Positions 1 to 5,358 of a DNA stretch of 64,000 bases are shown here, piece after piece. The notes under the pieces were generated by a model, which worked only from the letters and a program-made list of their open reading frames with translations, was not told the origin of the DNA and made no database searches. The position numbers and the translations under genes are program-made. The DNA is from Dysgonomonas hofstadii (GTDB lineage: Bacteria > Bacteroidota > Bacteroidia > Bacteroidales > Dysgonomonadaceae), in the NCBI RefSeq assembly GCF_014196915.1, contig NZ_JACIEP010000003.1, positions 124,001 to 188,000 of the forward strand, given 5' to 3'. The number at the start of each line of letters is the position of its first letter. Position 1 is the stretch's first letter.

Positions 1-1208
1 AGTGCCATCATCTGGTGTTGCCCGACGTCGGTAACCAGTACAGCCTTGTTTCCGGTGGCTTCCGATACTTTATTGATCACTTCGCCCATCTTTAGCTGCC
101 CCGATTCCGGATATAGTTCTTCTTTGATTACAACATTGTATTCCCTGTCATAGCAAACTTTAAATTCATCCAGCCATTCAGTGTATGATTTTCTATCTAA
201 AAGCTCTGTAACTAAAGGCAATGTTTCTTTTACATCTCCTAGTACACAGGCTGTTACAGGTACATTTTTATTTATCTCGGCCTTATCGATATCGAAATGT
301 ATAATCTTTGCCTGTTTGGCATATGTATTCAGATCGCCTGTAACACGGTCATCAAAACGCATGCCTATGGCTATAAGCACATCACATTCGTTAGTTTTTT
401 GATTTGGGGCTATATTCCCATGCATGCCAAGCATACCTACATGTTGAGGATGATCTGATGGCATAACAGATAGACCCAGGACTGTAGAGGCCACAGGTAT
501 ACCCGATTTTTCGGCAAAAGCAAGGAATTCTTTTTCAGCGTTCCCCAAGATTACACCTTGTCCGACAAGTACTAATGGTTTTTTTGCCGTATTTATAATT
601 TGTGCCGCTGTTTCTATCTCCTGTTGCTTTACCTCGGGTTTTGGTTGATAACTGCGTATAAATGTTGCTTTTTCGTATTTGAAGTTTTCGAGTAACCCGA
701 ATTGTGCATCTTTGGTGATATCCAGGATAACAGGTCCGGGACGTCCCGTGGATGCTATATAAAATGCCCGTGATACTGCCCATGCAATATCTTCGGGGCG
801 GCGTATCTGGTAGGCCCATTTGGTAACAGGTTGCATAATACCTACTACATCGGCTTCCTGGAATGCATCGCTTCCTAACAGAGAGGATACTACTTGTCCT
901 GAAATAACAACAATAGGAGTACTGTCAAGCATGGCATCGGCAACACCTGTTACAGCATTAGTCGCTCCCGGCCCTGAGGTAACGAGGGCTACACCAACCT
1001 TTCCCGATGTGCGTGCGTATCCTTGTGCTGCGTGGGTAGCACCCTGTTCGTGACGTACAAGGATATGGTTTATTCTGTCCCGATAGTCATACAGACAATC
1101 GAATACGGGCATTATAGCTCCGCCCGGATATCCGAAGATAGTATCTGCTCCTTCGTTCAGTAACGATCGCATAAGAGCTTCACTTCCTGTTATTTTACTA
1201 TTGTTCAT
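1..1208 (-). CDS. ilvB: Acetolactate synthase large subunit, N-terminal part (cut by window edge)
   Basis: This is the catalytic subunit of acetohydroxyacid synthase, the thiamine-diphosphate enzyme that opens valine, leucine and isoleucine synthesis. About 402 residues are visible and the frame stays open to base 1. The ATG at 1208 is followed within 25 residues by the TPP-family motif FGYPGGAIMPVFD, then LVRHEQGATHAAQGYAR with the cofactor-activating Glu, then SGPGATNAV. The central region (VLGDV, IHFDIDKAEI) matches the FAD/nucleotide-fold domain, and the last visible residues TDVGQHQMM begin the TPP-binding domain. It follows ilvD and two small membrane-protein genes on the same strand, so it lies downstream of the ilv attenuator. 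The rest of the enzyme and any ilvN/ilvC genes are outside the window. Identification is by family motifs and is secure. Confidence 0.96.
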   Translation of the reverse strand, partial: MNNSKITGSEALMRSLLNEGADTIFGYPGGAIMPVFDCLYDYRDRINHILVRHEQGATHAAQGYARTSGKVGVALVTSGPGATNAVTGVADAMLDSTPIVVISGQVVSSLLGSDAFQEADVVGIMQPVTKWAYQIRRPEDIAWAVSRAFYIASTGRPGPVILDITKDAQFGLLENFKYEKATFIRSYQPKPEVKQQEIETAAQIINTAKKPLVLVGQGVILGNAEKEFLAFAEKSGIPVASTVLGLSVMPSDHPQHVGMLGMHGNIAPNQKTNECDVLIAIGMRFDDRVTGDLNTYAKQAKIIHFDIDKAEINKNVPVTACVLGDVKETLPLVTELLDRKSYTEWLDEFKVCYDREYNVVIKEELYPESGQLKMGEVINKVSEATGNKAVLVTDVGQHQMMA

Positions 1209-1232: not shown

Positions 1233-1754
1233 TTAATAATAAAGATTCTCAATATAGTTGATCAGAAATACTAAACCAATAAGGATAAGGACAATGACTG
1301 CCAATACTATAGCTGGTCCTGTAAATGAAACGCCACCTTCGTATTCGAGGTAATCCAGCTGGTCTTTTGTATTGTTATAGGATTCTTTAGCACGCCTGAC
1401 TGTGCGCTCAGCTTTTTTCATATAGAAAATGTTGGCATAACAGCCTGCAAATATTACCCCTAAAAGAATAGTCCATACATAAGGGTAGAAGCCCATAACG
1501 ATCATAATAAAATTGTTGAGCAAACCTATGGCAAGAACGAAGACAACCAATTCTGCATACATTTTACGATATGGCAACCAAAAGATACTAAGCAGGAAAG
1601 CATATGGATTGAAGATGATCGACTCTCCCGACAGCATCCTTTTATATATCTTTTCGTAATAGGTGGCATCTTTCCCGAAAAAGGTCTTATAGTATAGACT
1701 TTCGTCAAAGATATCGTCTAATTCTGCTTCTTTGTTTTGATTGTCGTATTTCAT
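1233..1754 (-). CDS. DUF2628-like small membrane protein
   Basis: A 173-residue protein of unknown function. The motif IIFNPYAFLLSIFWLPYRKMY resembles the conserved core of DUF2628 membrane proteins (Asn-Pro-x-Ala-Phe followed by Trp and Tyr-Arg-Lys-Met). Three hydrophobic segments follow, at roughly residues 68-90, 93-112 and 148-168, with a charged stretch rich in Lys/Arg/Glu between the last two. The gene sits between ilvD and ilvB in the same direction, 24 bases before the ilvB start and 6 bases after the preceding paralogue. It is therefore probably co-transcribed with branched-chain amino acid synthesis, although nothing in the protein suggests a role there. The family assignment comes from memory of the motif and is moderately sure. 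Confidence 0.75.
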   Translation of the reverse strand: MKYDNQNKEAELDDIFDESLYYKTFFGKDATYYEKIYKRMLSGESIIFNPYAFLLSIFWLPYRKMYAELVVFVLAIGLLNNFIMIVMGFYPYVWTILLGVIFAGCYANIFYMKKAERTVRRAKESYNNTKDQLDYLEYEGGVSFTGPAIVLAVIVLILIGLVFLINYIENLYY

Positions 1755-1760
1755 TTGATA

Positions 1761-2255
1761 TTACATTGCCGGATCACTCATTATAAATGATACAAATATT
1801 ATGAAAGCTATTAGAAATAAAACCGGAATAAAAACTATTAATAAAGAATCAAAAATATTTGTTCCGCCTTTTTCTCTTATATAAGTGAATTTATCTCCCA
1901 ATCTTTCATATTCATTTGCCTTTTTAATCACTTTGATTGCTTTTTTTATATATAAGTAATTTCCAATAAGTCCTAAAATAAGAGAAAATACAATATATAA
2001 TAACAAAAAAGAGATATTTACGAAAAAACTAAATGTAAATAAAGCATATATTATCAGTGATATAACTATTGTTTCCAGTGTCATTCTCCGATAGCAGAAC
2101 CAAAATACATTGCCTATAAATGCATAGATATTAGGGTTGATAACAATCCCTTTTTTTACTTTATCCAGACATTTTAGATAATAGTCTTCGCTGCTGCTAA
2201 AAAATGCTGCATACATTGCTCTTTCTTCTATTTCATTTAAAGACTTATCTTCCAT
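1761..2255 (-). CDS. DUF2628-like small membrane protein, paralogue of the adjacent gene
   Basis: A 164-residue membrane protein of unknown function. It carries the same core as its downstream neighbour in a more divergent form: INPNIYAFIGNVFWFCYRRMT, then two hydrophobic segments, a Lys-rich linker (IKKAIKVIKKANEYE) and a final hydrophobic segment. The similar order of elements and adjacent position suggest tandem duplication followed by divergence. The ATG at 2255 lies just after the ilvD stop codon and is preceded by an AAAAGG Shine-Dalgarno-like run, which supports translation as part of the ilv operon. It is more AT-rich than the flanking ilv genes, which may reflect relaxed constraint or a later insertion into the operon. 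Confidence 0.72.
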   Translation of the reverse strand: MEDKSLNEIEERAMYAAFFSSSEDYYLKCLDKVKKGIVINPNIYAFIGNVFWFCYRRMTLETIVISLIIYALFTFSFFVNISFLLLYIVFSLILGLIGNYLYIKKAIKVIKKANEYERLGDKFTYIREKGGTNIFDSLLIVFIPVLFLIAFIIFVSFIMSDPAM

Positions 2256-2259
2256 CCTT

Positions 2260-4089
2260 TTATTCCACTATCCTTATTCCGCCCAAATCAGCTGAACTAA
2301 CCATGCTTGCATATGCCCTGAGCGCCTTAGATACAACACGGTTACGGTTCGGTTTAAATGCATCCTTCCCTTTTGCCAGTTCTTCCTGACGGCGGCTTTC
2401 CAGTTCGGCATCAGAGAGTTTGACGTTGATACTGCGGTTTGGAATATCTATTTCTATAATATCACCATTACGTACCAGTCCTATTGCCCCACCCGAAGCT
2501 GCTTCGGGTGAAACATGTCCGATGGATAAACCGGATGTACCACCAGAGAAACGGCCGTCGGTGATAAGTGCGCATTCTTTTCCTAAGTGTTTCGATTTGA
2601 TGTACGAAGTGGGATAAAGCATTTCCTGCATACCCGGTCCGCCTTTCGGCCCTTCGTACGTGATGACGACTACATCTCCCGCGACTACCTCGTTGCGTAG
2701 AATACCATCACAGGCTGCATCCTGGGAATGAAAAACTTTTGCAGTGCCCGAGAATCTGAAAATACTTTCGTCGACACCTGCGGTTTTTACTACGCAACCA
2801 TTCAGAGCGATGTTCCCTTTCAGTATTGCCAGACCGCCGTCTTTAGTATAAGCATTCTCCATATCCCGAATACATCCGTTAGTGCGGTCAGTATCGAGGG
2901 TAGGGTAGTAATTATCTTGTGAACCCATCACCAGATTAAATTTGTTTCCCGGAGCCGATTTATATAACATTTCGGCTTCCTGCGAAGGGTTTTGTTTTGT
3001 TATATCATATTTTTTGATAGCCTCGCCAAGGGTTAACCCATCTGCTCTTGAAACACAGGTATCGATAAGTTTTCCTTTATCCAGTTCTTTCATAATCCCT
3101 AATATGCCTCCTGCACGGTTCACATCTTGTATATGATATTTCTGTGTATTAGGAGCTACTTTGCAAAGGCATGGTGTATGGCGCGACAGTTTGTCGATAT
3201 CATTCATCGTGAAATCAACTTCGGCTTCCTGTGCTATGGCCAAAAGGTGAAGGATCGTATTTGTAGATCCTCCCATTGCTATATCGAGTGTCATAGCGTT
3301 CAGGAAGGCTGTTTTGGTCGCTATTTTACGGGGGAGAACGGATTCATCACCGTCACGGTAGTATTTGTATGCATTTTCTACGATTTGCTTAGCCGCATCC
3401 TTAAATAGTTTGGGGCGGTTGGCATGTGTGGCAACTATTGTTCCGTTACCGGGAAGAGCTAAGCCTATGGCTTCGTTCAGGCAGTTCATCGAATTTGCAG
3501 TAAACATTCCCGAACATGATCCGCAGGTGGGGCACGCAGCCCTTTCTATCGCATCTACTTCTTTATCGGAAACAGACTCATCGGCGGATTTTATCATAGC
3601 ATCTATCAGATCAAGATGCTGATTGTTCAGCTCCCCGGCTTCCATCGGTCCGCCCGAAACGAATATGGCAGGGATATTCAGGCGCATGGCGGCCATTAGC
3701 ATCCCGGGAGTGATTTTGTCGCAATTACTAATACAGATCATTGCATCGGCCTTATGCGCATTTACCATATATTCCACGCTGTCGGCTATCAGGTCGCGTG
3801 AGGGTAGGGAGTAAAGCATCCCGTCGTGGCCCATCGCTATCCCGTCGTCTATGGCTATTGTATTAAATTCGGCGGCAAAGCAGCCTAATGCTTCTATTTC
3901 TGCTTTTACTTTTTGTCCTATATCGTGAAGGTGTACATGTCCCGGAACAAACTGGGTAAACGAGTTGACAATAGCGATCAGCGGTTTGCCCATCTGATCT
4001 TCTTTCATTCCGTTTGCTCTCCACAGAGCACGGGCTCCGGCCATGCGGCGTCCTTGTGTACTTGTTGAACTTCTTAATTCGAATCCCAT
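2260..4089 (-). CDS. ilvD: Dihydroxy-acid dehydratase
   Basis: IlvD removes water from 2,3-dihydroxy-isovalerate and -methylvalerate to give the keto acids that are aminated to valine and isoleucine. It is a cytoplasmic Fe-S enzyme. The 609-residue length is typical. [10 protein letters not shown] carries one cluster cysteine (about residue 123), [18 protein letters not shown] (from about residue 186) is the family signature, and the C-terminal section has [24 protein letters not shown] and ends in GGIRIVE. It is the first structural gene of the ilv operon. About 50 bases separate its ATG from the T-run of an attenuator terminator, so expression should respond to charged branched-chain tRNAs. 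Assignment is secure. Confidence 0.98.
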
Positions 4090-4143: not shown

Positions 4144-4177
4144 TAAAAAAAGCCTTTCCCATATTTGAGAAAGGCTT
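4144..4177 (-). terminator. Attenuator terminator of the ilv leader
   Basis: On the minus strand AAGCCTTTCTC, a six-base loop and GGGAAAGGCTT form a stem, followed by a run of seven T. It is an intrinsic terminator lying between the leader peptide and ilvD rather than after a gene. Its 5' arm contains CCTTTCTCA (4166-4174), an exact complement of TGAGAAAGG at 4225-4233, which overlaps the leader peptide stop codon. The two structures are mutually exclusive, as in classical ribosome-mediated attenuation. Confidence 0.88.
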
Positions 4178-4224
4178 ATATTTAGTTTTTTCCTTAGATT
4201 TTCAATCTATTATTTATATACATA

Positions 4225-4233
4225 CCTTTCTCA
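4225..4233 (-). promoter_or_regulatory. Antiterminator half-site of the ilv attenuator
   Basis: The nine bases TGAGAAAGG begin at the UGA stop of the leader peptide and can pair perfectly with CCTTTCTCA in the 5' arm of the terminator about 50 bases downstream. A ribosome that finishes the leader would cover this site and let the terminator form. A ribosome stalled in the Ile/Leu/Val run upstream would leave it free to block the terminator. The pairing is seen in the sequence; the regulation is inferred. Confidence 0.8.
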
Positions 4234-4296
4234 TTTATTCTGGCCGACGAGGAGAATATTAATGACGAGGACGATATATAAAAAACAATTTGTCAT
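4231..4296 (-). CDS. ilv leader peptide (attenuation peptide)
   Basis: A 21-codon open frame, ATG at 4296 to TGA at 4231. Ten of its 21 residues are branched-chain, nine of them in the run IVLVINILLV. It starts 22 bases after a consensus Bacteroidetes promoter and ends on the antiterminator half-site, with the terminator about 50 bases further on, before ilvD. That order (promoter, control codons, stop, terminator, first biosynthetic gene) is diagnostic of ribosome-mediated attenuation, as in the enterobacterial ilvL and ilvB leaders. No strong Shine-Dalgarno is visible before the ATG, which is usual in Bacteroidetes. It is too short for routine gene calling and is easily overlooked. Confidence 0.87.
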   Translation of the reverse strand: MTNCFLYIVLVINILLVGQNK

Positions 4297-4318
4297 ATTT
4301 TTTTATCAAAAGTGATCA

Positions 4319-4349
4319 CAAAGTTATAAACTCTTTTTTTATAAGCAAA
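4319..4349 (-). promoter_or_regulatory. Bacteroidetes promoter of the ilv operon
   Basis: On the minus strand TTTG (4349-4346), a 19-base spacer and TAACTTTG (4326-4319) match the Bacteroidetes primary sigma consensus TTTG-N19-TAnnTTTG exactly. Transcription would begin roughly 6-10 bases further on, just before the leader peptide ATG at 4296. Confidence 0.85.
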
Positions 4350-4462: not shown

Positions 4463-4509
4463 TGTAATTGAATATCTAATCTATGAATATTAATAAATAT
4501 AATTTAGTT

Positions 4510-5358
4510 ATGAAAAACATTTATTATTTTCTTTTCATATGTATTTTTCTTTGTTTTCTTTTTGCGGGATGCAGTAGTGATAATGAACTAGAACTAAGTG
4601 AATATAGTTGCGAGCTTGATGATGCAAAGATGTATGCCAGGATTGAAATTAAAAGTGGCTCAGGTGAATATACTGCAACCTCTTCAAATGAGAATGTTGC
4701 AGTAACATTAATTGAGGGAAATGTATTATTTATATGCGCAAAAAAAGAAGGGACCGCAACTATAAATGTTATGGATGGAGAAAAGAATCATGCAAAAATA
4801 GATGTAGTAAATAATAGGTTTATGCTTGATCCGAATCCTGCGTCTCGAAATATTGTCTTAAAAAAAGGTTCATCATGGGAAATCCCAATAGAGGATGCCG
4901 TGAAAGGATATGAATATCTGTTTCTTTATGCTGATGACAAATCTTTATTTGAATCGGGAATGATTGAAAATAAAATTAGAATAAAAGGAATTAAAACAGG
5001 AGAAACATATTTGTCAGTCAAGCAATTAATATGGACATATGCTTATTATCACGTGAAAATAGTAGATGTTTATGATCTTAATTTATGGAAATATACAGAT
5101 GTGTTTGATATTCAGCCAGAACAGAAGATATCGATTGATATTATGGAAGGTAACGGTGATTATAAAGTGACCTTTACCGAACCTGATATTGTATCTGCAA
5201 ACATTGAACCTTTTATCGAGAATGAATACATAAAACATACATATTATTCAGAAAATCAAAATACTTTAAAAATCAAAGGATTAAAATCCGGAAATACAAC
5301 AATTACTATTACCGATAGAGAGGGTAAATCGGATGTTGTAAAAGTAAGAGTAAATTAA
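4510..5358 (+). CDS. Lipoprotein with bacterial Ig-like (Big2-type) repeats
   Basis: A probable surface or periplasmic lipoprotein of unknown function. I prefer the second in-frame ATG at 4510 (282 residues) over the one at 4483, because it gives a standard signal peptide: MKNIYYFLF, a hydrophobic core and the lipobox LFAGC. The mature part shows two or three Ig-like units of the Big2 style. The first includes SSNENVAV, a strand, then AKKEGTATINVMDG. The last ends IKGLKSGNTTITITDREGKSDVVKVRV. The same pattern occurs in the secreted protease at 14843-16678. It is a single-gene unit followed by a strong hairpin. No enzymatic motif is visible; adhesion or scaffolding is possible but not shown. 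Confidence 0.75.
   Translation: MKNIYYFLFICIFLCFLFAGCSSDNELELSEYSCELDDAKMYARIEIKSGSGEYTATSSNENVAVTLIEGNVLFICAKKEGTATINVMDGEKNHAKIDVVNNRFMLDPNPASRNIVLKKGSSWEIPIEDAVKGYEYLFLYADDKSLFESGMIENKIRIKGIKTGETYLSVKQLIWTYAYYHVKIVDVYDLNLWKYTDVFDIQPEQKISIDIMEGNGDYKVTFTEPDIVSANIEPFIENEYIKHTYYSENQNTLKIKGLKSGNTTITITDREGKSDVVKVRVN

Follow-up and report, generated by a model that had tools for sequence, protein, structure and literature searches.

The question raised by this locus is whether the DNA preceding ilvD in the window, i.e. the whole stretch of 64,000 nucleotides of Dysgonomonas hofstadii DNA analysed here, encodes a complete ribosome-mediated attenuator as an earlier note had proposed. Comparison with related loci suggests that it very probably does, the element acting as a transcription attenuator of ilvD-ilvB-ilvH-ilvC which would sense how far the tRNAs for Ile, Leu and Val are charged. 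From the sequence we infer the expression of the RNA and of the peptide, the positions of the ribosome and the response to starvation.

Architecture of the ilv leader and its operon

The whole element and the operon downstream of it are read on the minus strand of the window (Table 1), which the earlier note had omitted together with the 1:2 hairpin. The promoter described there as a consensus promoter is present, being of the Bacteroidetes and not of the E. coli type: TTTG is followed after a gap of 19 bases by TAACTTTG, an arrangement that fits the promoter consensus of Bacteroidetes, and a scan for E. coli-type promoters listed no site at the promoter bases on the minus strand. The leader frame of 21 codons, its IVLVINILLV run, in which nine of the ten residues are Ile, Leu or Val, and the UGA stop overlapping TGAGAAAGG are all found as described, the stop (4233-4231) forming the first bases of TGAGAAAGG. 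A spacer of 50 bases, in agreement with the gap of about 50 given before, leads from TGAGAAAGG to its complement CCTTTCTCA, which sits within the 5' arm of the terminator hairpin. We infer a start of the RNA near 4313, from which the length of the terminated transcript is reckoned. The pattern GAGAAAGG-N20-50-CCTTTCTC has a single site in the 5.04-Mb genome, namely the ilv leader, and the reversed control has none.

Table 1. Features of the ilv leader and of the genes following it in the window
Feature	Positions	Strand	Evidence or remark
-33 promoter element TTTG	4346..4349	-	sequence; fits the Bacteroidetes consensus
-7 promoter element TAACTTTG (TAnnTTTG)	4319..4326	-	sequence; recurs before the leaders of relatives
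Leader peptide gene, 21 codons and UGA, MTNCFLYIVLVINILLVGQNK	4231..4296	-	sequence; similar frame in 30/30 near loci
Control codons 8-17, IVLVINILLV	4246..4275	-	codon reading of the leader
Predicted protector hairpin 1:2	4203..4292	-	folding; leader codons pair with segment 2 and bases 3' of it
Segment 2, antiterminator arm TGAGAAAGG	4225..4233	-	contains the UGA stop
Segment 3, CCTTTCTCA	4166..4174	-	arm common to antiterminator and terminator
Intrinsic terminator hairpin, segments 3:4	4150..4177	-	12 bp, loop of 4
Segment 4, TGGGAAAGG	4153..4161	-	sequence
T run	4145..4151	-	3' end of the predicted terminated RNA of ~169 nt
ilvD, first structural gene	2260..4089	-	NCBIfam above cut-off
Small protein, DUF2628	1761..2255	-	membrane nature judged by eye
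Small protein, DUF2628	1233..1754	-	membrane nature judged by eye
ilvB	3..1208	-	continues beyond the window edge

Within the leader of the window Val is encoded by GTC in all three codons and Leu by CTC in three of four, both being uncommon: across 41 long ORFs in the window, a reference set made mechanically, GTC makes up 11.4% of Val codons and CTC 8.7% of Leu codons. This codon choice could also stem from the needs of base pairing.

The operon has the gene order ilvD-DUF2628-DUF2628-ilvB-ilvH-acyl-ACP thioesterase-ilvC, the last three genes being located outside the window in the same genome, and this neighbourhood fits the proposed Ile/Leu/Val signal. The acyl-ACP thioesterase gene between ilvH and ilvC occupies positions 10026-10763 of L113. 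As to the gap between ilvD and ilvB in 12 other loci, one locus (L032) contains one ORF of similar size, ten contain none and L049 yielded no ORF. Divergent from the leader, a gene encoding a Big_2 domain is found on the plus strand (window 4483-5358), the start of which, judged by eye, suggests that the product is probably a lipoprotein.

Occurrence of the module before ilvD

We compared up to 330 bases 5' of ilvD in 103 loci, including that of the window. These were obtained from 111 loci by dropping L001 and L032-L037, which coincide with other loci, and L085, the upstream end of which is missing, while three loci with short upstream stretches (L043, L067, L069) were retained. A strict rule, which required a terminator, 7 or more antiterminator pairs and, close to the antiterminator, the stop of an ORF rich in I/L/V, returned the module in 66 of the 103 loci and in 0 of 2060 dinucleotide shuffles, the loci being mutually related and picked by ilvD similarity and therefore not independent, and near-identical pairs (e.g. 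L030/L031, L094/L100, L095/L099) being retained among the 66. Bacteroides and Parabacteroides are among the Bacteroidales carrying the module. The promoter motif TAnnTTTG is present 8-60 bases 5' of the leader ATG in 63 of the 66 loci compared to 325 of 6600 mononucleotide-shuffle draws. By this comparative evidence, which supports the reading put forward in the earlier note, the ilv element appears to be a real attenuator, conserved in close relatives and present in part of the order.

Conservation of the leader frame, which had been suggested as a check, holds for all of the nearest loci (L002-L031): an I/L/V-rich frame of 60 or 63 nt, picked by script as the frame near the antiterminator with the highest I/L/V density, is present in 30 of 30, and the whole module according to the strict rule in 29. 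In L026, the sole miss, the complement is shorter (AGAAAGGT) and TAAGAAAGG takes the place of TGAGAAAGG. At the I/L/V alignment columns of these leaders 263 of 270 residues are Ile, Leu or Val, and the three swap with one another, as is expected if the residue class and not the individual residue counts; an excess of synonymous changes in the leader was not significant (11:30 vs 40:158, p 0.23). Other groups have other leader peptides, such as MNLHTSINLAVLHIIRVVVVASRA in Bacteroides and MMNNVLHIILVVVLLVISR in Parabacteroides.

The strong terminator might alternatively be constitutive or mark the 3' end of an sRNA, the short frame in front of it being incidental. An excerpt of the B. thetaiotaomicron RNA map describes sRNAs ending at such terminators (PMC7366714), and the best of the weak Rfam matches at the leader is an sRNA, GibS. 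However, GibS reaches 25.7 bits where its cut-off demands 115, and an I/L/V-rich frame recurs together with the module in the 66 loci and throughout the near ones, making an incidental frame very unlikely and favouring attenuation.

Among the 37 loci failing the strict rule, seven have a mismatched or shorter complement (L040, L045, L050, L054, L056, L062, L105) and several show no visible element. The preceding gene was checked in 19 of the 37, and in four of these (L064, L087, L088, L089) ilvD is located behind leuB without the module, so that ilvD is not the leading gene at these loci.

Used as a detector across the order, the antiterminator pattern matched 51 of 393 genomes, yet many of these seem to be repeats or chance matches, and reversing the pattern as a control gave matches as well; owing to this noise the ilvD-anchored test took its place, together with a covariance model, R1, built from 36 sequences extending from 4 bases before GAG through the terminator with the peptide excluded. 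R1, searched with filters of the large-search type which lose weak matches, gave 48 matches in 39 of 295 Bacteroidales genomes and none in the other 256. Thirty loci were returned from R1, 26 of them free of training sequences and four containing them; 23 lie before ilvD, six before leuA and one before neither, and 28 of the 30 have an I/L/V-rich leader. Two R1 matches of equal score (67.5 bits each), located on separate contigs of a single genome at G317:C1:735659-735738 and G317:C7:80863-80942, represent either a duplication or an assembly effect. A relaxed search, allowing one mismatch and not requiring a leader, found the complement in 91 of 110 loci, a number not used as a count since the search was uncontrolled and returned evident chance matches (L087, L159).

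Pairing, folding and the proposed switch

For the covariation analysis 36 of the 66 strict loci were aligned (A4). In the terminator 97.8% of cells are paired and the covariation score was reached by none of 500 shuffles, the number of pairs changed on both sides, two, being reached by 171 of 500. The antiterminator 2:3 shows pairing in 98.0% of 252 cells, compared to 37-59% for slid versions; five of its seven pairs are invariant and one is changed on both sides, a number that 201 of 500 shuffles also reach, and its covariation score was reached by 2 of 500 shuffles with the structure slid by +2 scoring as high (0.095 vs 0.090), related sequences being able to surpass such shuffles without structure. 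That the antiterminator is nearly invariant can be explained by segment 3 pairing with both segment 2 and segment 4, a full change thus needing three coordinated steps.

The compensating changes for which the earlier note had proposed a test are accordingly few in close relatives, and complementary variants are found in distant ones. L076 carries the pair GGGAAAGG/CCTTTCCC, and L055 a different form which by eye is also complementary. Outside Bacteroidales, where 16 of 34 genomes of the same class with an ilvD match were read, two clear cases with complementary arms were found in two genomes of one genus, TGAGGCACT/AGTGCCTCA (L168) and GAGGCACT/AGTGCCTC (L165), the leader peptides there being MYPLVILLSFIILIGFTK and MNGKVFLLSIIILLEF; by eye L171 is a possible third.

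Support for the 1:2 hairpin differs between groups of hand-chosen loci. Eight Parabacteroides-like loci show 95.7% of cells paired with modest covariation compared to shuffles. Covariation is likewise modest in 16 Bacteroides-like loci (without L099 and the long-leader loci), which have 76.7% of cells paired in a structure taken from the fold of one member, a slid version having 10 two-sided pairs and the structure itself 9. In 27 Dysgonomonas-like loci (without L019, L026 and L031) 98.5% of cells are paired and covariation does not exceed that of shuffles. Folds of the leader region are mildly better than those of shuffles (median z -1.45; z < -1 in 41 of 66), and since this improvement is so small, no part of the switch is less secure than the predicted 1:2 hairpin.

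In the predicted fold of the untranslated window RNA the hairpins 1:2 and 3:4 form with -37.0 kcal/mol. If the RNA is free from just 5' of segment 2 and segment 4 has not yet been made, 2 is predicted to pair with 3 (-17.1 kcal/mol), while the same RNA including segment 4 pairs 3 with 4 (-18.6 kcal/mol); the energy gap between both is small, so that the order of synthesis can decide. In folds ending before segment 4, segment 3 is paired with at least six of the eight bases of GAGAAAGG in all 66 strict loci. In 51 of these 66 the leader ends with UGA, which overlaps segment 2 at GAG; the others end with UAA (8) or UAG (7). The distance to GAG from the start of the last codon in the densest I/L/V stretch is 16 nt in the window and ranges from 12 to 31 nt among the 66 loci, seven leaders having one I/L/V codon nearer to GAG at 4-10 nt. 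A ribosome reaches about 12-13 nt past the first base of its A site. Taken together, these distances suggest that a ribosome stalled at the control codons would leave segment 2 free and that one terminating at the stop would cover it, as judged on geometry.

In the proposed mechanism, hairpins 1:2 and 3:4 would both form when the leader is not translated, and transcription would end. A ribosome completing the peptide would cover segment 2 from the UGA stop, leaving 3 to pair with 4, and transcription would end as well. Stalling at an upstream Ile, Leu or Val codon would allow 2 to pair with 3 before segment 4 is made, so that no terminator would form and the operon would be transcribed. The protector hairpin 1:2 would render this a complete three-state switch.

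The leader might instead mainly set translation or the access of Rho, by reinitiation or polarity, with the intrinsic terminator playing no major part. According to PMC4833913, the distance between predicted leader genes and the structural gene in Bacteroidetes has its peak at 11-14 bp, interpreted as reinitiation; the stop of the ilv leader, in contrast, is located 141 bases from ilvD with the terminator in between, and such a role is as improbable as the incidental frame. Hardly worth considering is a metabolite-binding riboswitch or T-box acting on the same terminator, since despite a structured leader (161-base fold, z = -4.46) Rfam 15 has no family at its cut-off over it and conservation falls on the codon run, the stop, the antiterminator and the terminator. 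Weak Rfam matches include Phe_leader (17.6 bits, cut-off 55), and the Rfam results for the ilv leader contain no T-box match. Transcription attenuation through the intrinsic terminator remains the preferred reading.

Further amino-acid leaders and relation to known systems

The earlier note regarded such a mechanism as rarely documented in Bacteroidetes. This mechanism is classical and its ilv case is little documented in this phylum, yet within the same genome attenuator-like leaders are not limited to ilv. The trp leader matches the Rfam family Bacteroid-trp RF01692 above cut-off (52.4 bits), as do leaders in 16 of 41 genomes of the taxonomic family; it encodes MNFLLTNTFWWWHSQLKKS with TGG TGG TGG and precedes a trpB-like gene (L149 about 284-417; G000:C13:116783-116916). 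Before leuA a leader encoding MLSVHSIIISSLIILWRNLG is followed by a terminator (L155, minus strand), whose arm CCTTTCTCACTC resembles that of ilv. Leu-type leaders precede leuA in 23 of 24 loci of the genus (L177-L200; L197 is truncated), a complement of the GTGAG/CTCAC type being the longest found in 17 of the 24. The pheA leader encodes MNNFSFTYFFFFYFYFKSKTGFCM (L156 about 1925-2062), and AGACAGGATTTTGTA pairs with the terminator arm, G-U pairs included. All 22 pheA loci of the genus (L207-L228; the gene fragment L229 was excluded) have a leader rich in Phe and Tyr together with a terminator and a 10-15-base complement, and the changes in L211 and L228 are matched ones. The pheA leader has the appearance of a phe attenuator. 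The 306 bases before hisG of this genome, inspected by eye, show no his leader, and a terminator scan there was empty.

From these sequences this genome appears to control amino-acid synthesis generally by attenuation, and with ilv, leu, phe and trp leaders in one genome we lean towards the view that ribosome-mediated attenuation serves Bacteroidales as a standard means of controlling the synthesis of branched-chain and aromatic amino acids. The analysis adds a predicted peptide gene without annotation and a regulatory RNA without a Rfam 15 match in many Bacteroidales, and it identifies what probably switches their synthesis of branched-chain amino acids. Attenuation of this kind depends on translation keeping up with transcription, and Shine-Dalgarno signals are weak in Bacteroidetes. 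If the mechanism is true, the leading ribosome must track RNA polymerase closely despite these weak signals, and because attenuation needs this coupling the several leaders in one genome offer an assay for transcription-translation coupling in the phylum. In the literature searched we found no paper devoted to such coupling in Bacteroidetes, which is not proof of absence, none on a Bacteroidetes phe leader and none describing ilv attenuation in this phylum. One or both of the surveys cited in that literature as Vitreschak 2004 and Lopatovskaya 2010 reportedly may include Bacteroidetes, and we therefore make no claim of priority. A survey of 2013 states that Ile/Val and Phe attenuators were absent from Rfam (PMC3766115), and the B. 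thetaiotaomicron map notes short frames that resemble leader peptides, its example being a different gene (PMC7366714).

Among known systems, E. coli and the ilvBNC operon of Corynebacterium glutamicum are named as attenuator cases in PMC10272879, which also presents the Corynebacterium ilvB-II uORF motif. This motif is alike in having a leader ORF rich in branched-chain amino acids before an ilv operon and differs in being actinobacterial with ilvB as first gene. Bacteroid-trp RF01692, listed as a cis-regulatory element of Bacteroidetes in Table 1 of PMC2864571, occurs in the same phylum and the same genome, whereas it concerns tryptophan instead of Ile/Leu/Val, and its model has no match at the ilv leader. 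Compared to the enteric ilvGMEDA, ilvBN and leu attenuators as generally described, the element reported here differs by its Bacteroidetes promoter, the stop within TGAGAAAGG and the GTC/CTC control codons, and it agrees with them in the Ile/Leu/Val-rich leader, the competition between antiterminator and terminator and the biosynthetic operon behind.
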